A stretch of 64,000 nucleotides of DNA, taken from positions 620,001 through 684,000 of the forward strand of contig NZ_CP088285.1 in assembly GCF_011516645.4 (NCBI RefSeq), read 5' to 3'. The notes beneath the pieces were generated by a model, which was not told the DNA's origin, made no database searches, and worked only from the letters and a program-made list of their open reading frames with translations. Position 1 is the first letter of the stretch. Every line of letters begins with the position of its first letter. Shown here one piece after another: positions 28,279-53,054 of the stretch. The position numbers were made by a program, and so were the translations under genes. Source of the stretch: Bradyrhizobium septentrionale (GTDB lineage Bacteria > Pseudomonadota > Alphaproteobacteria > Rhizobiales > Xanthobacteraceae).

Positions 28279-29265
28279 TTATCTTGAAGGTTCGCTGGAC
28301 AGCCAATCTATCGCGCCCCCGAAGAACGCTTTCAGCGACCATTTCGCGGCTTCGCTGTCAGTCAATTGATGAGAATGAGGCTCGCGGCCTGCGGGATTGG
28401 CCCCGATGCTGGAGGATTTGTATTCGGCATAGTAGGCCGTCCTGAACGTATCCGTCTTGCCGGGGGCCCATTCGCGCCAGCCTTCCGCAATGACCGGCGC
28501 ATCGATCTTCGTCGACAGGAAGATCACTGTGGCATAGGGGCGCCAAGCGCGGCCAAGCGCAACATAGCGCGCACCAGGCTCGGCAGTCAGCCTGCACTGA
28601 TCGAACACAAAGGCACTGTCCTCGCCCGGTGCTCCTTTGCTCTGCGCCGTATACAAAACCGCTTGATTTGCGATGCCGTGCAACTCACAGCGCCTGAAAT
28701 AGGCCTTCGCATTGCCAAAAACGAAGTCGACATGCCCCTCGATGTAGCAATCAGAGAAGTACTGCCGCGACATTCGACCGTTAGGGCCCTTACCGGCGAA
28801 CAATGTATCCTGGGCGCCAAGCAGGCGAACATGGATGATTGCGTCCCGGTCGCCGGTCACCGATAGCGCCACGGCCTGCGAAGCTGGATTGTCCCCCTTG
28901 AGGGAATAGTCGTTTTGGACCGTCAGATTGTCGAGCCGGAAGTCATCGCCCGAGGCGTTGAGCGTCGCAGAACGGGCTGTCCCTCCCACGTTGATTGCGC
29001 CATCGCCGTACACGATGATCGTATCATCCGGCTTTTTGCCGGTACCTTTGAGATGAACACCAGGTTTGAGGACTTTGACCTTTTCGCGATAGATGCCAGG
29101 CGCGATCTGGATATCCCCGCCTTGCGGTGGCAGTGCGTCAATGGCTGCCTGCACGGAGTGATAGGCCGTCTCTCCGGCGTGCGACACAAAAAGCAACTGA
29201 GTATCGGCTGCCGAGACAGAGCAACATTCCGCGAGAGCCGCAGCGGATAGCGCGATCATTCGCAT
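28279..29265 (-). CDS. Pectinesterase (carbohydrate esterase family 8), secreted
   Basis: About 328 residues from the ATG at 29265, which follows a GGAGAAGG site; the upstream extension of the frame is not needed. Residues 1-20 form a signal peptide (MRMIALSAAALAECCSVSAA). The beta-helix enzyme shows the CE8 motifs LGAQDTLFAG, GHVDFVFGNA (catalytic Asp) and ALGRAWRPYA (substrate Arg/Trp). It removes methyl esters from plant pectin, which prepares the polymer for the polygalacturonase encoded upstream on the same strand. The IS1380 between the two genes may have separated their transcription. Confidence 0.9.
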   Translation of the reverse strand: MRMIALSAAALAECCSVSAADTQLLFVSHAGETAYHSVQAAIDALPPQGGDIQIAPGIYREKVKVLKPGVHLKGTGKKPDDTIIVYGDGAINVGGTARSATLNASGDDFRLDNLTVQNDYSLKGDNPASQAVALSVTGDRDAIIHVRLLGAQDTLFAGKGPNGRMSRQYFSDCYIEGHVDFVFGNAKAYFRRCELHGIANQAVLYTAQSKGAPGEDSAFVFDQCRLTAEPGARYVALGRAWRPYATVIFLSTKIDAPVIAEGWREWAPGKTDTFRTAYYAEYKSSSIGANPAGREPHSHQLTDSEAAKWSLKAFFGGAIDWLSSEPSR

Positions 29266-29538
29266 ATGACCTTCTCCATCCGATCCGCTGCGCGCTCGAT
29301 GATCGATACAAACTGCCGCAGCGCAACAGCAGCCGAACCTTGCCAACGCAGCGAGTATGCCGCCGGGAACTTGCGCGCGATTTCCAGAGCGGCTGACCGC
29401 GACAAGTCTTCTCGGAAAGCTTGGCAGGGACGTGAGCGCCATGAAACGACCCGGGGCGCAACGCCACTCAATCTCAACCGCATTGACACGAAACCTGACC
29501 CGCCGGACACGAAGTTGTTGTGGTTACGCATTAACTAG

Positions 29539-31160: not shown

Positions 31161-32450
31161 CTAGTTCCGGAAGGCCTTTGCGCATTGCTCCCACCCGCCC
31201 GGCCCCCTCTCTCCAGCCCGGCCGGGCAGCGGCGGCGACACTGCAGAATGATCGGCGGTTACATTGGCGTTTTCCAGCCGCCAAGTCGCAGACTCGGCAA
31301 ACCGAACATCCTCCAGCGTCACGTCAAGTGCATGCTTGCCGTCTACACCGCGCATCAGCAGCGTACCGTTGTCGCCGCGCACATGGCGCAGAGCGATCCG
31401 GCGATAGACTGGAATGCTGAAGCCTTGTGCGTGTGGATTGTACTTTGTATCGAAGGCGATCGGCCATCGGTTGCCGCGCAGACACACGTTCTCATATGTC
31501 ACTCGCTCCACCAAGCCGCCTCGACTGACATCGCTCTTGATGCGCAGGCCGAATGTCGTGCCATCCAGCGTCAGGTCTCGCACCAATATGTCGCTGGCGC
31601 CGGAGTTCACTTCGCTGCCGATCGACATTCCATGTCCCCAGCCGAAGTAATTGTCGACGATGGAGATATGACGGCTTGGGCCATTGTCGCCGGCTTTGAT
31701 GGCCACGTTATCGTCTCCAGTGCGGATAAAGCTGCGGGTGATGGTCACATCCTGGCTGGCGCCAGGGTCGATGCCGTCGGTGTTGCGGGCCTCGGCCGGC
31801 GCATCGATCGTGAGCCCCCAAAAGGTGGCACCTTCGACCCTGTTCATCACGACGTGGAAATTGGGCGCATTGCGTAGCGTGACACCATAGAACGTGATGT
31901 CCTGCGCCTGATCGATCTGGATCAAACGCGGGGCGTTCTGATTGCCGCTCTCAGTCTGGGCGCGGCGGGCCAACTGCCACCAAGTTTCGGTGCTGCCGGC
32001 CATGGCTGCTCCACCCTGGCCATCGATGGTGCCGTCGCCATAGATGCCGCCGCCACGCGTCTTGGAAAAGCTGATGAACGGACGGCAACCATCGCCCTTG
32101 CCTGCGATCCGTCCACAATGGCGCCGGCCTTTGTCATAGAGAGCTGGTTCGGCCATGGCGACAAGCGTGGCGCCACGTCCGATCCATAAGGTGACGCCTG
32201 ATTTCATCCCGAGCGGGCCCGAGAAGTACTGGCCGCGGCCCAGATAGACCGCCGCGCCGGCGGGGCAATGGTCGATGGCGTCTTGCAACCTGGCCGTATC
32301 GTTTGTGCCAGACGGCACCGGGCGGTCGCAGACCGTGTGAGGTGCAACAGGTTCGGCAACAATGCGGCGGTCCTGCGCCTTGGCCATAGGGCAGAAAACC
32401 ATGAAAGCAACGAAGGACAATAAGGCCCAGTCGCGGAAACGCTTTGTCAT
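31161..32450 (-). CDS. Polygalacturonase (glycoside hydrolase family 28), secreted
   Basis: 429 residues with a signal peptide (LLSFVAFMVFCPMAKAQ). The GH28 catalytic motifs are present: NTDGIDPGASQDV (NTD), RTGDDNVAIKAG (DD), GHGMSIGSEV (G-H-G) and LRIKSDVSRGG (RIK). It hydrolyses alpha-1,4 links in pectate and should act outside the cell on plant walls during infection. Bradyrhizobium symbiosis regions are known to carry such a gene near type III secretion loci. The pectinesterase is downstream beyond the IS1380. The stop codon lies in the IS1380 target duplication. No strong regulatory box was found upstream. Confidence 0.93.
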   Translation of the reverse strand: MTKRFRDWALLSFVAFMVFCPMAKAQDRRIVAEPVAPHTVCDRPVPSGTNDTARLQDAIDHCPAGAAVYLGRGQYFSGPLGMKSGVTLWIGRGATLVAMAEPALYDKGRRHCGRIAGKGDGCRPFISFSKTRGGGIYGDGTIDGQGGAAMAGSTETWWQLARRAQTESGNQNAPRLIQIDQAQDITFYGVTLRNAPNFHVVMNRVEGATFWGLTIDAPAEARNTDGIDPGASQDVTITRSFIRTGDDNVAIKAGDNGPSRHISIVDNYFGWGHGMSIGSEVNSGASDILVRDLTLDGTTFGLRIKSDVSRGGLVERVTYENVCLRGNRWPIAFDTKYNPHAQGFSIPVYRRIALRHVRGDNGTLLMRGVDGKHALDVTLEDVRFAESATWRLENANVTADHSAVSPPLPGRAGERGPGGWEQCAKAFRN

Positions 32451-33635
32451 CGACTACCTCGAGCTTTGCCGCCCGCATCCTTGCAGCATGCTTTGTGTGA
32501 AGCTGAGCGCTGGCTGGATCGGCCGTAGCGCGGCTCACTGGCCTGGGCAAGATGACATTTATAAGACGCAGAGGAGGCGTGAACCTTGCAACCCGGCGAC
32601 AGCGCCTTGCTTGTGAGCGAACAAAGATGAGCCGGTCAAAACGGCTGATCCCAACACTTGTCACGCGCGTGAGCGTTCGCGGCTTGGCTTCTCGCCACTT
32701 GCACTTGTGCGCGAATTCTTGCGCTCTACACCGCTCAGCCATTGCACCAAGCCAAGCCCCTGTTGCGAAGACCCGGTTGGCAGCCTACTTCCAGCTGTCG
32801 CTCGGTCGGACGCTGCCCCCAGCATCCGCTCGGAGGTTAGCGGGATCCGAGACAGGCTCCAATTGACGTGGTCGCACGTTACGCTCTCCGACCTCCTGCG
32901 CACGTGCGCTGAAGTGTCCCAGAGCAGATCGATGAGCCGTCTTCACGCTTCAGCGCTTGCTCGAGCTCTGTCAATTCTGCTTGGTACCTGGCCACATCCG
33001 ATCGCGCGCGAAGGAGCTTGACTTTGGGCTCGTCTCGTCGCCTCGATTCCTCTTCAAGCCGCCAATTATCCTCGATCGGCTCAATGGTCATTTACGTACG
33101 GTCTCCGTTCTGCAGATGACTACAATCCTCAAAGCCTTGGACTGTTGATCTCCGGCAGAAGGTGGACCTTTGCCAGAACGACTTGAGGAACTGTTCACAG
33201 CAAGTTGTTCGAATTGTGCGAAGCACGTTTAGGATCGCCATTCGTCGATACCGCACAGAGTCAATCTTATCCTCGGCGCAGGACCGAAGCCCCACCGGAA
33301 GATAGAGAGCTTGCCAGGCGAGGCTGCGTCTCCGATGCAGCTCGCTGACCACTTGAAATGAACGAGCAAGCTTCATCTGACTTACAGATCAGGTGCCGCG
33401 AGATCGCAATAGTCGCCGCAGCGGATGCTCGGCACATCGAGCAACCGACGTGCCAGTGACGCCGACGGCCGTTTTGACGAATCGCGGCACCTCTCGGCGC
33501 GCTGTCTGGATACCGACGTCTGACTGTCGGGCTTCGGACAACCGACGTCTTCGATCACTGGGCTGAAATGGCTCATACCACAAGTGGTCTGGGCGGACTG
33601 ACCAAGCACACACCATCGAGTGCGCAGATCTCGAA
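32451..33635. other. Long non-coding or degenerate stretch
   Basis: About 1.2 kb. No ORF could be assigned. A short minus-strand frame at 32879-33091 (charged, MTIEPIEDNWRLEEESRRRD) might be a gene remnant but has no recognised relatives. The left part holds the promoter region of the polygalacturonase. The right part lies between that promoter and the racemase 3' end. Confidence 0.4.
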
Positions 33636-44569: not shown

Positions 44570-46315
44570 TCATTGAGCAGTCTTGCCGGGTTCTGTAGCG
44601 CCGATATTCTTCAGCATTAGGTCGCGCAAGAACGCCGGACCGGGAATTCGGATTTCCTTGCCGTCGCGCAGTCTGCCGATTGCCGCAAGCAGCTTGCGGA
44701 TATCATAGGTCGAATTGAACACCTCTGGCACACCACGTTCGACGTTGAGGAGCGTGTAGACGGCCTCCATCGCCGTGCGCACTGAGTATTCGGTCGTGAA
44801 GACGCAATCGCTCTCCGCCGACTCAGCAAACTGGCCGATGAAGGCAAAATTGATAGCGCCTTTGGGCACGACATTTGGTCGATCACCCGCCTGCCGCGGC
44901 ATGAAGAGAGAGGTGACGTAGGGCATCATCACCGGCACTGTCTTTGCGGCCATCGCGGCGAGTCCCGGTATGTCCTCGACCGGCACGCCGAGGTGATACA
45001 ACCATTCCTGCGTGATTTCCTCGCCCGTGCAATCTTGCATCGGCTTGTTCACGTAGTCGCCAGGCTTGTCGACGAAAAGTGAGTAGACCCAGACGACGAT
45101 CTGATTACTGGGCTGGTACTTGAAATGCGGTTGACGGTTTACAGTCCAACTGAGCAGCCAGTTCGAATCCTTCGCCGTGACGATCCCTCCCGTGACGACC
45201 TTGCCGCTGAACGGATCGCGTTTGGCGATCTTGCGGATATAGGCTGGAATGCGCGCATCTAGAGTCGTGATCGTCGCCGATTGCCATTTGGTTGCAGGAA
45301 TATTGCCGCCGAAGACATCCGGGCGGCCGAACGCCGCGTCCTTGGCCGCAATACGCCGCCACAGATCCCAAGCAGGCGCCGGGCCTTCGTCGAGCCTGGA
45401 GGGCGTGTGATGGTCTGCCTGGTCCGAGTTTTCGGTGAGCGACCCGATCGTCATGAAGACAAGATCGTCGGCGCCAAGGCCGATGCCGCCGGCGACGCCG
45501 TCCTCCAGCCAGTGGATAGCCGTGGCCTGCTTGCATCCGGCCTTTATGTCGAAATCGACATCGGTGACTTCGACGTCGTAGCGGAAGTTGACGCCCTGCT
45601 CCAACAGCCATTTGCACAACGGTAGAACCAGCGATTCATACTGATTGTACCTGGTAAACTTCAGCGCGCTGAAATCCGGTAGGCCCCCGATATGATGGAT
45701 GAACCTATGCAGATAAAGCTTCATCTCCAGGGCGGAATGCCACTCCGCAAAGGCGAACATCGTCCGCCAATAGAGCCAAAAATTGCTGCAGAAAAACTCT
45801 TTCCCGAACACTTCGTCGATACGCCTGTTCTCCATCTCCTCACGGGAGGCAAGAAAGACGGCGATCAATTCCTTCTCCGCCTTTTCGCTCAGAGTGAAAA
45901 GGCCGTCGGTGCGCGCGTCCTGTCCCTGGTTCACCGTCGCCCGTTGCAGCGAGTAGTTCGGATCATCCTTGTTCAACCAGTAGAATTCGTCGAGCACGCT
46001 GGCACCTTCAGTTTCCAGCGAAGGGATCGACCGGAACAAGTCCCATAGGCACTCGAAATGATCCTCCATCTCGCGGCCTCCCCGGACCACGAAGCCCCTT
46101 CCTAGGTCTTGGTTACCGTCGAGAGCCCCACCGGGTATCTTCAGCCGTTCGAGGATGGTGATCCGGTCGCCACGCATATGGCCATCGCGGATCAGGAAGG
46201 CCGCACCGGAAAGCGCCGCCAGGCCCGCACCGACGAACCACGCAGTCTTGTTGTCCACACCTTCGGGTTTGCGAGGGCGGGCAAAAGCTTCGTAATTTCC
46301 GCTACCGTAGTACAT
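44570..46315 (-). CDS. ohyA: Oleate hydratase (FAD-dependent fatty acid double-bond hydratase)
   Basis: 581 residues, the usual length. The N-terminal FAD-binding loop is AWFVGAGLAALSGAAFL, followed by ITILERLKIPGGALDG and VVRGGREMEDHFECLWDL, both characteristic of the family; also FCSNFWLYWRTMFAFAEWHS and NFAFIGQFAESAESDCVFTT. It adds water to the cis-9 double bond of oleate to make 10-hydroxystearate, a detoxification reaction for free unsaturated fatty acids. An SDR gene lies 43 bp upstream on the same strand, suggesting further oxidation of a hydroxy product. Intact. Confidence 0.94.
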   Translation of the reverse strand: MYYGSGNYEAFARPRKPEGVDNKTAWFVGAGLAALSGAAFLIRDGHMRGDRITILERLKIPGGALDGNQDLGRGFVVRGGREMEDHFECLWDLFRSIPSLETEGASVLDEFYWLNKDDPNYSLQRATVNQGQDARTDGLFTLSEKAEKELIAVFLASREEMENRRIDEVFGKEFFCSNFWLYWRTMFAFAEWHSALEMKLYLHRFIHHIGGLPDFSALKFTRYNQYESLVLPLCKWLLEQGVNFRYDVEVTDVDFDIKAGCKQATAIHWLEDGVAGGIGLGADDLVFMTIGSLTENSDQADHHTPSRLDEGPAPAWDLWRRIAAKDAAFGRPDVFGGNIPATKWQSATITTLDARIPAYIRKIAKRDPFSGKVVTGGIVTAKDSNWLLSWTVNRQPHFKYQPSNQIVVWVYSLFVDKPGDYVNKPMQDCTGEEITQEWLYHLGVPVEDIPGLAAMAAKTVPVMMPYVTSLFMPRQAGDRPNVVPKGAINFAFIGQFAESAESDCVFTTEYSVRTAMEAVYTLLNVERGVPEVFNSTYDIRKLLAAIGRLRDGKEIRIPGPAFLRDLMLKNIGATEPGKTAQ

Positions 46316-46358: not shown

Positions 46359-47117
46359 TCAAAAGAGGTTCTCGGGCGCCAGGCATTTGCGTGGGACGCC
46401 GACCGTCAGACCTCCATCGATGACGACCTCCGAACCGGTAAGGTAGCTGGACTCGTCGCTGAGGAGGAACAAGACGACCTGCGATACTTCCTGCGGCTCG
46501 GCTGCCCGCCCGAGTGGAACGGGGAAAAGGGAGGACTCGAAGCTCTCGGTCATCGGGGTGGCAATGAAGCCGGGATGGATCGAGTTGATGCGGACTCCCG
46601 AGGCCGCGGCTTCCAGTGCAGCGGACTTGGTTATGCCCCGCACGCCGAACTTCGAAGCGACATAGGCGTGGAGTCCGGCACTGCCCCGCAGCCCCTCGAC
46701 GGACGAGACGTTGACGATCGAACCTCCGCCCGCGCGCCGGATGGCCGGTAGGGCTGCCTGCATTCCGAGGAATACGCCGGTTAGATTGACGGCAAGGGTC
46801 TTGTTCCACTGATCGAGCGAGAACTGCTCAATAGGGGCTATGTTGGCGATCGCGGCGTTGTTGACCAGCCCGTGGAGCGCGCCGAAGCGACCCTCGGCGC
46901 TTGCGACCGCCTCGGCCCACTGCTTCGGCTGGGTAACGTCCTGAGGCACATAGATGGTCGAATTGCCAAGTTGAGCCGCGAGAGCCTCTCCTTCTGTATG
47001 AAGAATATCAGTGATCACGACCCTGGCCCCCTCAGCCACCAGCAGGCGCGCATTAGCTGCCCCCATTCCGCGAGCCCCGCCGGTCACCAGAATGACCTTG
47101 TCGTTCACACGTCCCAT
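46359..47117 (-). CDS. Short-chain dehydrogenase/reductase (SDR)
   Basis: About 252 residues from the ATG at 47117 (MGRVNDKVILVTGGARGMGA). It has the cofactor motif TGGARGMG, the NNA motif (LVNNAAIANI), the catalytic Ser in VNVSSVEG and Tyr/Lys in AYVASKFG, and the C-terminal YLTGSEVVIDGGLTVG. It is a classical NAD(P)-dependent SDR close to 3-alpha/20-beta hydroxysteroid-type enzymes. It is transcribed just ahead of the oleate hydratase; oxidation of a hydroxy fatty acid is a reasonable guess but not shown. Intact. Confidence 0.9.
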   Translation of the reverse strand: MGRVNDKVILVTGGARGMGAANARLLVAEGARVVITDILHTEGEALAAQLGNSTIYVPQDVTQPKQWAEAVASAEGRFGALHGLVNNAAIANIAPIEQFSLDQWNKTLAVNLTGVFLGMQAALPAIRRAGGGSIVNVSSVEGLRGSAGLHAYVASKFGVRGITKSAALEAAASGVRINSIHPGFIATPMTESFESSLFPVPLGRAAEPQEVSQVVLFLLSDESSYLTGSEVVIDGGLTVGVPRKCLAPENLF

Positions 47118-47469
47118 AGTCGTTGGCTCGTTCCGTTGATCAATGGCGGTGCAGCGTCTTCCAGGCGACGAAGAGGACGCGAGGGTCATCCGTTATGACG
47201 CGCGAAGTGTCGAGAATGTGCGGAATGCTCTGTGTGAATCGCGGGTGCCTTCTTATCGACACGTCAATGCTAAGCGGACCAACCATTGATGCGCTGTTGG
47301 CGACGGACAGAAGTTAGCGGCGACGTGACGCAGGTGCCTGCCCGTGTCCTGCACAGGCACTGTCCCTCGTCGATATCACGCGCCGCTAACCTCAAGTGGC
47401 CAGCCACGGCCTCAAGTTGCGATGGTGGCCATGTCCAGGGGAGGGCGCCCCTGGGCATATCGAGGGTCT

Positions 47470-47484: not shown

Positions 47485-47725
47485 AAAAATGGTCCACAGT
47501 TCGCATTGTTTTGTGTGGGTTTTGTTCTCTTTCCGACTTGCGAACGTCGTGATGTTTGCACCCAGCCCTATTTACAGCGGCTTCATGTCGATCGTGGCGC
47601 CCCCGCAAGCATCGGCAGCGCAGGCAGTTTTGCTGCCAGTTTCGACACGATGAAAGACCTGGATTAACCGTCATCGGCGCTGCGTGGCGCCGTTGCATCC
47701 CTGCACGTCTGATCTCGCTCAGCTG

Positions 47726-47741
47726 TGTCCGGTCGATGACA
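47726..47741. promoter_or_regulatory. NifA upstream activator site (UAS)
   Basis: TGT-CCGGTCGATG-ACA, the exact TGT-n10-ACA form. It lies about 105 bp upstream of the -24 element at 47846, within the normal 80-150 bp range for NifA activation. A single such site could arise by chance, but the pairing with a near-perfect sigma-54 promoter is persuasive. Confidence 0.6.
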
Positions 47742-47845
47742 TGCATGTGGGGAACTGCAATCGAGGCGCAAACAGCTGTTCGGGGACCGCGGGTTGAAAG
47801 CGCAGCGTTTTGTCTCTGTTCAGGCGGAATGCCGGTACGATGGCT

Positions 47846-47860
47846 TGGCACGCTGGTTGC
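47846..47860 (+). promoter_or_regulatory. Sigma-54 (RpoN) -24/-12 promoter
   Basis: TGGCACG-CTGG-TTGC, identical to the sigma-54 consensus with the exact GG-to-GC spacing. With the NifA site upstream it should be active in nitrogen-fixing bacteroids or at low oxygen. Predicted start near 47872. Confidence 0.75.
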
Positions 47861-47871
47861 TGACGCATGTA

Positions 47872-47973
47872 TGGCTCGGCTGCTCATATGCTCGCGCAAC
47901 CCCCATGAGACAGCAAAGCCTCTTCGAAGCGCAAACTAGCGCGGGTGGCCCCTCCAGCCGCCCGCGCGCTTTT
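47872..47973 (+). ncRNA. Candidate NifA/sigma-54-dependent short transcript
   Basis: A predicted start near 47872 and a strong intrinsic terminator at 47939-47973 would give an RNA of about 100 nt. An ATG at 47905 (MRQQSLFEAQTSAGG) opens a frame that reads through the hairpin to 48027, but no clear ribosome-binding site is seen. It could be a small RNA, a leader peptide or attenuator, or the remains of a leader whose gene has been lost. Confidence 0.45.
47939..47973 (+). terminator. Intrinsic terminator hairpin
   Basis: An 11-bp stem GCGCGGGTGGC / GCCGCCCGCGC (one G-U pair), loop CCCTCCA, followed by GCTTTT. It is very stable and oriented to end transcription from the sigma-54 promoter. Confidence 0.6.
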
Positions 47974-48205
47974 CCGCAGGCCGCCCGTGGAGATTATGCC
48001 ATGAAAAGGCTTTGGAGAACGCCATAGAGGCGCTGAGGAGATGGTCTGAAGGCTAACTCGCAACCGGCATCGTACTTGCCGCGCTGGCAAAGCTTGAAGC
48101 GAGTAGGCCAACACCGAGGCTGCGTCCAGAACGGAAGCTCTCTGCCATCACGCGGATGCGCGCGTCAAAGCTACGCCCAGCAATCTCGGTCGACGGTCCC
48201 GCTGT

Positions 48206-48334
48206 CAATTTCCGGAAATCAAGCGGGTCGAAGTGTTAGAAGAGCGCGAGATCACCGCTTATCACGAGGCGGCGCATGCGGTGATTTCGCGCACTCGACA
48301 CCGCGCCGCTCCCGGCGCCCCTAGCGATCGATGA
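48206..48334 (+). pseudogene. Fragment with an HEXXH metalloprotease-like motif
   Basis: The frame reads FPEIKRVEVLEEREITAYHE followed by AAHAVISRTRHRAAP, containing YHEAAHA, an HExxH zinc motif like that in M41-type or related proteins that begin with such an AYHEAGHA segment. The rest of the gene is not present. It is assigned only as a remnant. Confidence 0.35.
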
Positions 48335-48567
48335 TCCCGGCAAGGATGGCTTTGACGCGCACGGAGACGGCCATGTAATTTTGTGCGGCTTTGATGGACT
48401 TGAGCCTTCCCGGATCTTTCTGTGCGATGTTGGGATCAGATAGGAGGCGCTGCAGCCGGACGCGGCGCCATGCCTGCACACGGCGGAGGCGCGGCAGGAT
48501 CGCAGGCCGTGCGAAAGCGTCGATCCGCTCAAACCTGGTCGCCACGGCCTGTTCCCTCCAGGTCGCA
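48321..48567 (-). pseudogene. Unrecognised gene fragment beside IS3 copy B
   Basis: A minus-strand frame of about 80 codons (LRRVQAWRRVRLQRLLSD, LKSIKAAQNYMAVSVRVKAI, ending LAGIIDR) stays open and helical until the left end of IS3 copy B, which removes its N-terminus. No family is recognised. Confidence 0.3.
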
Positions 48568-49389
48568 TGACCTTGCCCCCAAGTTTTATCCAGTCCTGAG
48601 TTCGCCCCGGCTGTTGGATTTGCCCGGTTGGGCGGTGGCAGCGGCGGGAGCTGGCGCGGAGCCCTCGGCATAGCGCAGCGCCAGCTCCCGCCGCAGGTGG
48701 CAGGTGAAGGCGAACTCGGACGGCGTCTTCCATCCGAGCTGCGAGTGTGGTCGTGCCTCGTTGTAATCGACCCGCCAGCATCCGAGCGCGACACGGGCCT
48801 GGGCCAACGACATGAACAGCGTCTCGTTCAACAGTTCATCGCGCAGCCGGCCGTTGAAGCTTTCAATGAAGGCATTCTGCATGGGCTTGCCCGGCGCGAT
48901 GTAGTGCCATGCCACGCGGCTCTGATCAGCCCATGTCAGGATGGCGTTGCCGGTGAGCTCGCTGCCGTTGTCGCTGACCACCATCTTCGGCTTGCCGCGC
49001 TCAATCATCAGCCGGTCCAGCTCCCGCGCCACCCGGGTGCCCGAGAGCGAGGTGTCGGCCACCAGCGCCAGGCACTCGCGGGTGCAGTCGTCGACCACGG
49101 TGAGGATACGGAAGCGGCGACCATCGGTGAGCTGATCCGATACGAAGTCGAGCGACCAGCGGTCGTTCGGCGCCATCGGCACCGTCATCGGCGCCCGGGT
49201 CCCGATCGCCCGCCTGCGGCCGCCACGGCGACGCACCGCAAGCTTCTCTTCCCGGTAGAGCCGGAACAGCTTCTTGTGGTTGATCACATAGCCCTCCCGC
49301 TTGAGCAGAACGTGGAGGCGCCGATGGCCAAAGCGGCGGCGCTCGTGGGCGATCGCCGATTTGGCACTCGTGCGTTCCGAACAAAGCAC
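48568..49389 (-). mobile_element. IS3-family element, copy B, truncated
   Basis: Left terminus TGACCTTGCCCCCAAGTTTT at 48568 (IS407-subgroup-like). orfB is present nearly whole, but orfA and the right terminus are missing; the sequence passes into a Fic-domain relic near 49380, so the right part was deleted. Confidence 0.82.
48586..49389 (-). pseudogene. IS3 transposase OrfB, copy B, N-terminally truncated
   Basis: The core has [37 protein letters not shown] (first Asp), [13 protein letters not shown] (second Asp) and [16 protein letters not shown] (Glu), the DDE set. The C-terminus ([15 protein letters not shown]) is native. The N-terminal region and the frameshift window with orfA are gone. 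Confidence 0.88.
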
Positions 49390-51749: not shown

Positions 51750-52494
51750 TTGGATCGAATCCTCTCCGGCCTAAGTCGAACATATAAGGAACATCGGGAG
51801 TTGCCAAGCGGCAATTCCCCTGATTGCGGGGATCGCAACAGGCCGCGCCACCTCCTCACTTTCACCGTCAGGTGCCTTCAATGAATGGTTGCTATGTGTT
51901 AATCGATCGCCCTATGAGTGCAGTCAATTTGGCGATTGAGCGCGAAGATTGGTTGGGTGCCGTTTGGCGTTGGCGCCCTCACCAACGTCGATGGTGATGG
52001 GCCGAGGGAGCAAGTCTACGGCGGTCCGGACAAAGCTTTCTTCGAGCCATGCGTAGGCGAAGGCATACCCCTCCGCACGACCGGAGATCTACCGGGAAGG
52101 CGGCTGCCGCCGGGAACTCGAGCAGCTTCTGCTCAACCGCAAGGAAAAACTATGTGGACCTTCTCCTGATTTTCCTTAGCAGCCGTCGATAGCGGTGAAT
52201 GTTGCTGCGGTGCGCACGGATAGGCCAGATCTTCGTCTCGTCGTCTCTCCTGACGGTCGTCACGGTCGTTTTCGGTGTTGCGAAAGCGGGGAAAGAGATC
52301 CCCGGCGCAAAAAAAATATTCGGACGCGATTGGCTGTCAAAATGCCTCTCGTCGCATCTGCAAGTCCTTCGGAAAGGCGGCGCACGGCGACGCGCTGTGC
52401 CCGACGGCTGCAATTTTTTTTGCGCTCCCCTCTTGAAACAGCCTCTTGCTTTTCTACGTCATTTTTCGCCGCGAGAGCGGTGCGCCGGGCGCCT
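51750..52494. other. Non-coding gap
   Basis: About 740 bases. Open frames on either strand are not supported. The right part includes the promoter of the small heat-shock operon and an A-run (CGCAAAAAAAATATTCGG near 52300). Confidence 0.4.
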
Positions 52495-52598
52495 TTAACG
52501 GGTCCGGCACGGGCGCCGGGTTGGGTCTTCGGATCTGTCCGAAACCCCTGTCCTGCGCTCCTTCGTATCCATCTTGCTCTCTGGAGGACTTGGTTATG
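52495..52598 (+). promoter_or_regulatory. ROSE-type RNA thermometer in the hsp20 leader
   Basis: The last part of the leader reads TCTTGCTCTCTGGAGGACTT, so a TTGCT segment faces the GGAGGA ribosome-binding site in a short hairpin, the signature of ROSE elements that block translation at normal temperature in rhizobial small heat-shock genes. Further complementary stems lie upstream (CGGGTCCGGCACGGGCGCCGGG). The fold was not computed. Confidence 0.7.
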
Positions 52599-53054
52599 AG
52601 GACCACGTTTGACTTCGTGCCCCTATGGCGCTCCACCATCGGCTTCGACGACCTGGCCGGCCTCGTCGAAGGCACGCTGCGCCAGGCGACCGAGGACCAC
52701 TACCCACCCTACAACATCGAACGCTTCGGCGAAGACCGTTACCGGATCTCGCTCGCCGTCGCCGGCTTCGGCGCCGGCGACGTCACCGTAACGGCCGAGC
52801 AGAACGCGCTTACCATCGAGGGCAGCAAGCTCGAGAAGGCGACCGGCGAATATCTGTATCAGGGCATCGCCGCCCGTCCATTTCGGCGGGTGTTCAATCT
52901 CGCCGACTACGTCCAGGTGAAGGAGGCTTCCTTCCGAGACGGTTTGCTGATCGTCGACTTGGTCAGCGAGGTGCCGGAGGCCATGAAGCCGCGCCGGATC
53001 CAGATCGGAAGCGGTGGATCTCCGTCGCAGATCGAGCAGAAGAAGGCGGCCTGA
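52596..53054 (+). CDS. Small heat-shock protein (Hsp20/IbpA class)
   Basis: 152 residues starting at the ATG at 52596 with GGAGGA just upstream. The N-terminus FVPLWRSTIGFDDL is typical of class A rhizobial Hsp20. The alpha-crystallin domain covers about residues 35-130 (NIERFGEDRYRISLAVAGFG, GEYLYQGIAARPFRRVFNLA, with the final I-x-I as RRIQIG). It is a holdase that keeps denatured proteins soluble. It is translated under the ROSE element and followed by a second hsp20 84 bp downstream. Confidence 0.92.
   Translation: MRTTFDFVPLWRSTIGFDDLAGLVEGTLRQATEDHYPPYNIERFGEDRYRISLAVAGFGAGDVTVTAEQNALTIEGSKLEKATGEYLYQGIAARPFRRVFNLADYVQVKEASFRDGLLIVDLVSEVPEAMKPRRIQIGSGGSPSQIEQKKAA

Follow-up and report, generated by a model that had tools for sequence, protein, structure and literature searches.

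A predicted small RNA from a multicopy, probably NifA/sigma-54-driven family, partly coupled to a small protein, in nitrogen-fixing Bradyrhizobium

Pseudomonas stutzeri A1501 possesses two nif-related small RNAs, NfiS and NfiR, of which NfiS is reported to be sigma-54-dependent; NtrC sites are described for NfiR, whereas none were found for nfiS (PMC6606865). According to PMC10162802, the sigma-54-dependent small RNA Qrr1 of Vibrio fischeri is preceded by paired upstream activator sites and has LuxO/SypG as activators. Closer to the organism studied here, Bradyrhizobium USDA 110 carries BjsR1-BjsR10, some of which occur in several imperfect copies, some have predicted RpoN promoters and some were found only in nodules (PMC5082802). 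We analysed a stretch of 64,000 nucleotides of Bradyrhizobium DNA (hereafter the window), and consider it likely that one of its loci belongs to a multicopy family of small RNAs which, in nitrogen-fixing Bradyrhizobium, are driven by NifA and sigma-54 and in part coupled to a small protein.

The window locus and its predicted transcript

The first-pass annotation of the window had singled out a sigma-54 promoter identical to consensus, preceded by an exact NifA-type site and followed by a stable terminator with no convincing gene in between, and had read this arrangement as a possible bacteroid-induced small RNA or attenuator or, failing that, as the trace of a lost downstream gene. Both promoter elements were verified: the match to TGGCACG-N4-TTGC at 47846 is exact, with GG and GC at the fixed spacing, and is conserved in the family described below, and the sequence hallmark of the NifA regulon, an upstream TGT-N10-ACA, is present without mismatch at 47726. 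The features of the locus are:

47726-47741, plus strand: predicted NifA site TGTCCGGTCGATGACA, an exact TGT-N10-ACA that also fits TGT-N4-T-N5-ACA
47746-47761, plus strand: candidate degenerate second half-site TGTGGGGAACTGCAAT, weak, read from the sequence 20 bp beyond the predicted NifA site
47846-47860, plus strand: sigma-54 -24/-12 promoter TGGCACG-N4-TTGC (TGGCACGCTGGTTGC), exact match, at a spacing nearly fixed across the family
47872-47973, plus strand: predicted small RNA of about 102 nt, a type B member (match to covariance model R1, fold)
47873-47920, plus strand: 5' stem-loop (consensus fold, covariation)
47893-47904, plus strand: loop CGCGCAACCCCC, putative seed region, its C-run unpaired in the model ensemble
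47939-47973, plus strand: terminator, with hairpin 47939-47967 and short U-run 47970-47973 (fold, covariation)
48001-48150 (end approximate), plus strand: frameshifted remnant of a small open reading frame (sORF), from its likeness to the sORF of relatives
48151-48300 (ends approximate), plus strand: remnant of an M41-like (HEAGH) extension that a few relatives carry fused to their sORF

The start of TGTCCGGTCGATGACA lies 120 bp 5' of the -24 box and its end about 105 bp 5' of the promoter; NifA sites are typically found about 80-150 bp upstream of the promoter. Where the window has TGTGGGGAACTGCAAT, the upstream blocks of several relatives have [CT]GTCCGGAAGCYGCCA instead. Throughout the 64-kb window the -24/-12 consensus occurs twice in exact form and seven times with at most one mismatch, against 1.96 expected from shuffling, and TGT-N10-ACA by itself is at chance level (8 present, 6.64 expected). 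The second exact sigma-54 promoter (33441-33455, minus strand) has a TGT-N10-ACA 85 bp upstream (33525-33540) and shares its strand with two ORFs, one GH28 polygalacturonase-like (31161-32450) and the other pectinesterase-like (28279-29442); a similar promoter was seen at L046:11301.

The 5' end at 47872 was placed 12 nt past the GC of the -12 box, which gives a transcript of about 102 nt up to 47973. The segment 47935-47973 folds at -25.2 kcal/mol (z -4.51), which bears out the very stable hairpin noticed there; the T-run that had been reported with it is reduced to four T, and the hairpin was absent from the output of a simple terminator scan that requires five T in eight. A GC-rich hairpin with a U-run only four long is thus what the locus offers as intrinsic terminator, and U-runs are short in the terminators of the family as well. 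The predicted transcript has a fold z of -3.74 on the plus strand against -1.51 on the minus strand, most of the signal coming from the terminator (the 5' part 47872-47934 alone has z -0.92). ORFs starting inside the RNA differ from copy to copy, in agreement with the initial view that no convincing gene lies there, and a peptide encoded by the RNA was rejected on this ground. Rfam 15 gave no match at the RNAs, be it at the gathering cut-off over the whole window, at E <= 5 over 47600-48400 or at E <= 1 in five loci of relatives.

On the minus strand the RNA adjoins a short-chain dehydrogenase gene (46359-47189), perhaps FixR-like; a similar-looking gene at L051:6428 (plus strand) has its own sigma-54 promoter with TGT-N10-ACA and stands between family RNA copies. 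Further away are an MCRA-family gene (44570-46315, minus strand; Pfam E 3.3e-209), which we take to be oleate hydratase-like, and a ROSE RNA thermometer (52485-52602, plus strand; Rfam 56.3 bits) just 5' of ORFs that by eye resemble small heat-shock proteins.

A recurrent RNA unit in the genus

The proposal to look for the RNA segment in other Bradyrhizobium symbiosis islands, applied here to genomes of the genus, disclosed a multicopy family. BLAST with 47700-48330 against the own genome and 265 genus genomes hit 10 places in the former and matched 45 of the latter, many of them over just about 33 bases of a later part. Reading of these loci revealed a recurrent unit composed of a sigma-54 promoter, a 5' stem GGCTTGG...CCAAGCC, a C-rich loop and a GC-rich terminator, with two main RNA types (A and B) frequently in tandem. 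Thirteen promoter places had been set aside beforehand, being judged non-family, type C or odd, and 32 places minus two near-identical orthologues and one odd case yielded an alignment of 29 RNAs without promoters (A1). Its consensus fold consists of two independent hairpins with 18 pairs, six of them with double-sided change, and served to build covariance model R1 from the RNA alone, promoter excluded. In the own genome R1 returned 14 matches at E <= 0.01, of which 13 are strong and 10 are seeds; the window RNA, itself a seed, is the top match (91.9 bits) and retains both hairpins, which leaves 13 further copies, 12 of them strong:

Contig C2: 667870 (the window copy), 4480245, 4480394, 4577484, 4577699, 4619414, 4619632
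Contig C2, continued: 5176850, 5177007, 5178806, 5224433 and, weak, 5308764 (type C)
Contig C1, another contig: 179585, 179767

For the wider analysis 58 loci gave 105 R1 matches, 90 of them distinct (alignment A2), and counts at 40 bits or more refer to the 75 of 105 that remain once weaker matches and identical RNAs are dropped. Another family RNA follows at 50-119 nt in 30 of the 100 RNAs of at least 28 bits. The covariation check that had been suggested for the stem came out in its favour, with double-sided changes beyond shuffles. In A2, which leans towards R1 because the alignment was fitted to the model, paired cells (92.9% against 88.8% shuffled), cells changed on both sides (85 against 31.1), further pair types (34 against 26.8) and covariation (0.315 against 0.233) exceed every one of 500 shuffles; the fifth measure of compensatory change, the number of pairs with double changes (11 of 18 against 8.6), is reached by 37 of the 500 and is not outstanding alone. 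When partners were slid as a control, pairing fell to 28-47%.

Only non-seed copies count as a check on the promoter, since seeds were chosen by it. Among 44 distinct non-seed copies, some of which are close relatives of seeds, 40 have a promoter of at least 10/12 at 21-26 nt upstream, against a background of 6 in 6172 positions, and with seeds included it is found in 71 of the 75 distinct RNAs of at least 40 bits. The non-seed RNAs lacking a recognisable promoter are L087 (the own copy at C2:5224433), L122, L125 and L126, and four strong genomes (G004, G161, G162 and G257) hold a copy whose best promoter match is 9/12. A near-identical RNA copy with a weakened -24 box (TGCCAAG) and an exact TGT-N10-ACA 118 bp upstream is shared by four genomes (L122, L123, L124 and L125), and has perhaps decayed. 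Covarying hairpins, a near-fixed promoter spacing in copies that were found without the promoter and tandem copies together uphold the small-RNA reading, and the arrangement exceeds chance, given that the promoter-RNA-terminator unit recurs in so many copies. Loops are C-rich and mostly open, the motif being at least half unpaired in 62 of 64 motif-bearing RNAs; the C-run is not enriched over composition (64 of 75 RNAs, against 56.3 shuffled with a maximum of 67), so that a trans target is something we infer.

Within the genus R1 matches 44 of the 265 genomes at E <= 0.01, with filters that lose some weak matches, and 20 of them strongly (E <= 2e-8), eight being new because the seeds came from 12 of the 20. 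The 24 genomes with a best match of E 6e-7 to 0.01 were not counted as members, although one of these matches (L127 in G218, 39.6 bits) may be a decayed member. A nifH over the cut-off is present in 19 of the 20 strong carriers against 158 of the 265 genomes (Fisher p 3.1e-4, kinship ignored); the exception, G106, is a fragmented assembly with a best nifH E of 6.6e-107, counted below the cut-off. Named carriers are B. embrapense, B. pachyrhizi, B. ivorense, B. viridifuturi, B. barranii subsp. apii and Bradyrhizobium sp. C9. The wider region has matches in nine Bradyrhizobium plasmid records, and L096 (contig C4 of G092) has two RNA copies. The genome taken as USDA 110 holds no credible R1 copy (best E 0.346 in a lax search of six genomes). 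In an order-wide search of 397 genomes drawn evenly, with stricter filters, the only matches outside the own genome were nine weak ones, at E 1.1e-5 to 9e-4, a single one of which lies within the genus; these were treated as chance, none of the seven loci examined having a sigma-54 consensus. Across 19 weak loci scanned from the order-wide, genus and six-genome searches, 17 lack that consensus, and L077 and L082 have it some 600 nt beyond the match. A match in a Singulisphaera MAG, from a pattern scan of named genomes (16 stretches), was likewise taken as chance.

The upstream site and the partner reading frame

Upstream sequences were compared for 60 promoters, 41 of first or single RNAs and 19 of second RNAs in tandems, leaving out matches below 30 bits, promoters scoring below 10 and near-identical upstream stretches. 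An exact TGT-N10-ACA lies at -86 to -130 of 8 of the 41 first or single promoters (base shuffles: mean 0.54, maximum 4 in 2000 rounds); neither of two control stretches has one in any of the 41, nor does any of the 19 second promoters. Three of the eight come from orthologous copies of the window locus, which leaves six independent exact sites. The longer form TGT-N4-T-N5-ACA, which seven of the eight exact sites fit, occurs exactly in 7 of 41 (0.16 in shuffles) and with one mismatch in 23 of 41 (3.4 in shuffles), and in none of the 19 second promoters. Several best sites are followed by [CT]GTCCGGAAGCYGCCA about 20 bp on, an arrangement that, from its sequence, looks like a double site. The promoter of the own nifH has a site of the TGT-N4-T-N5-ACA type, TGTCAGGTCCAAAACA, 88 bp upstream, and the half TGTC[AC]GGT is common to it, to TGTCCGGTCGATGACA and to the family sites. 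The genome has one nifA over the cut-off (C2:890366-892033), some 220 kb away from the window copy. Positional enrichment and the likeness to the nifH site therefore lend support, at sequence level, to the NifA control initially suggested for this locus.

The fallback of a lost downstream gene also turned out to be well founded, since relatives have a conserved sORF past the terminator of which the window keeps a frameshifted remnant. Found with a purpose-written start pattern, this sORF of about 50 aa (MTREEALKNAIEALxxWSEGKxETxxVLAAIAELMAT..PP..) follows 25 of the 105 matches, duplicates included, roughly 20-65 nt past the match end. Over the first 36 codons of ten sORFs dN/dS is 0.5 or lower in 34 of 45 pairs, which indicates that the protein is probably real; a database search retrieved no more than two relatives, one listed as a B. 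elkanii hypothetical protein. The frameshift is shared by the three orthologues of the window locus (L090, L098 and L100), and sORFs are shortened or shifted in the related copies L046, L047 (8152) and L048. In a few copies the sORF runs on into an M41-like HEAGH stretch; Peptidase_M41 scored E 5.6e-5 in relative P0001, below the Pfam cut-off. Elements of type C (L044:8751, L038:5655 and L039:4301, plus strand) have the same promoter and a related sequence. In L044 a weak R1 match (29.2 bits) precedes an ORF of about 68 aa (MTKHRRLF...HLADWIRSSG), and a similar ORF follows a composite copy in L132; type C looks like a second RNA-sORF cassette.

Proposed function and relation to described systems

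The course of events that we propose begins with NifA, which is active at low oxygen and would probably bind the TGT-N10-ACA some 100 bp upstream, driving transcription from the -24/-12 promoter at 47846. The resulting transcript (about 47872-47973), whose induction in bacteroids we infer, would fold into the 5' stem, an open C-rich loop and the GC-rich terminator at its end, and would probably act in trans, with the open loop doing the base pairing. Read-through at the last terminator would probably supply relatives with the protein of about 50 aa; in the window copy, with its sORF broken, the RNA part alone remains.

For the RNA that ends an array, the main rival reading makes it the 5' leader (attenuator) of an sORF operon, its terminator setting the level of sORF mRNA and the short RNA being a by-product. 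The closeness of the sORF to the match end in the 25 cases, too short a distance for a further promoter of this kind to be seen, agrees with it, as does a protein that is probably real and would need read-through. However, 30 of 100 RNAs precede another family RNA at 50-119 nt and not the sORF directly, so that these at least are no simple leaders; the consensus fold is made of two independent hairpins with no antiterminator pairing seen by eye, and the clade of the window has a frameshifted sORF and yet keeps promoter and RNA. Tandem RNAs, with 19 distinct second promoters, and the persistence of the RNA without an intact sORF thus favour an RNA with a role of its own; as a full account of the family the leader is unlikely, and as a role beside that of the RNA it is possible for the last member of an array, where the sORF would need read-through. 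The breakage of the sORF and of the M41-like region in the window and its three orthologues, an ORF at 48586-49389 that reads by eye like an insertion-sequence transposase and the Pfam transposases elsewhere in the window would suit a decaying remnant, in which promoter and terminator of a lost gene persist in a copy no longer functional. This we regard as quite improbable: both hairpins are kept, the genome has 12 strong further copies among 13, and the promoter varies in 0 of 16 columns among the four orthologues, a shallow set. In the same four, variable columns are about as frequent in the RNA (7 of 103) as in the sORF remnant (13 of 155), so that this comparison gives no sign of selection on the RNA.

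Another activator is conceivable because just 8 of the 41 upstream sites are exact and the best site reads CGT-N4-T-N5-ACA in at least 11 of 41; the small RNA would then depend on sigma-54 and on another enhancer-binding protein, for instance an NtrC-like one, and besides nifA the genome does hold nine sequences that match the nifA model at E 1.4e-68 or better yet stay below its cut-off. Nevertheless, at the right distance there are more exact sites than in shuffles, the longer form fits seven of the eight, family sites resemble that of the own nifH and strong carriers are nearly all nifH-positive, which renders a replacement of NifA improbable. Chance co-occurrence of motifs in GC-rich DNA could appeal to the chance-level count of TGT-N10-ACA in the window and to the hairpin missed by the simple scan, but it is refuted, to near certainty, by a unit that recurs many times, shows covariation and has its promoter at a nearly constant distance.

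With a small RNA under NifA and sigma-54 as the preferred reading, nitrogen-fixing symbiosis may use an extra layer of RNA control. We give about an even chance to a more far-reaching formulation, namely that this is an undescribed NifA/sigma-54 small-RNA family that some symbionts have amplified to at least a dozen copies, arranged as RNA-RNA-sORF tandem cassettes that lie on at least two replicons, providing an RNA-plus-microprotein control in bacteroids that is absent from USDA 110. The seeming absence from that strain may be why its transcriptomes did not reveal the family. If expressed, the family would offer symbiosis RNAs that are amenable to study, together with a conserved microprotein, for nodule tests, and may have a share in how strains differ in nitrogen fixation. 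It is apparently undescribed so far: the accessible portions of PMC5082802, PMC4842269, PMC7143759, PMC6606865 and PMC10162802 do not describe it, and searches of open-access papers brought up no rhizobial RNA family that is controlled by NifA, stands in tandem arrays and has a partner sORF.

Genes of the NifA-RpoN regulon such as nifH share the promoter type and the TGT-N4-T-N5-ACA site, and differ in that their product is an enzyme mRNA whereas that of the family is a short structured RNA. Alphaproteobacterial small RNAs with C-rich loops, e.g. the alpha-r families, are defined by family sequence and a conserved loop motif. Trans-acting, Hfq-dependent small RNAs are marked by pairing with a target mRNA and by Hfq binding; what the present family offers in this respect is its open C-rich loop. 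Sets of Qrr RNAs are multicopy in other vibrios. Qrr1, compared by the part of its description available, works alike in combining sigma-54 with paired upstream sites, and differs in serving quorum sensing in another bacterial class. The BjsR RNAs, on the accessible account of them, resemble the family as Bradyrhizobium small RNAs that are partly multicopy and partly under RpoN promoters; R1 had 0 matches in 12 stretches at the published positions of BjsR2 and BjsR5-BjsR10, and no credible match for BjsR1, 3 and 4, covered by the whole-genome R1 search alone. NfiS and NfiR are like the family in being RNAs of a nitrogen fixer under sigma-54 or nitrogen control; they belong to another genus and, compared by description only, in the portions of the source available, are not described with tandem multicopy arrays or an sORF partner (PMC6606865). 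Sigma-54-dependent small RNAs as such are therefore already known, and the new part would be a NifA-controlled tandem family with a partner sORF.
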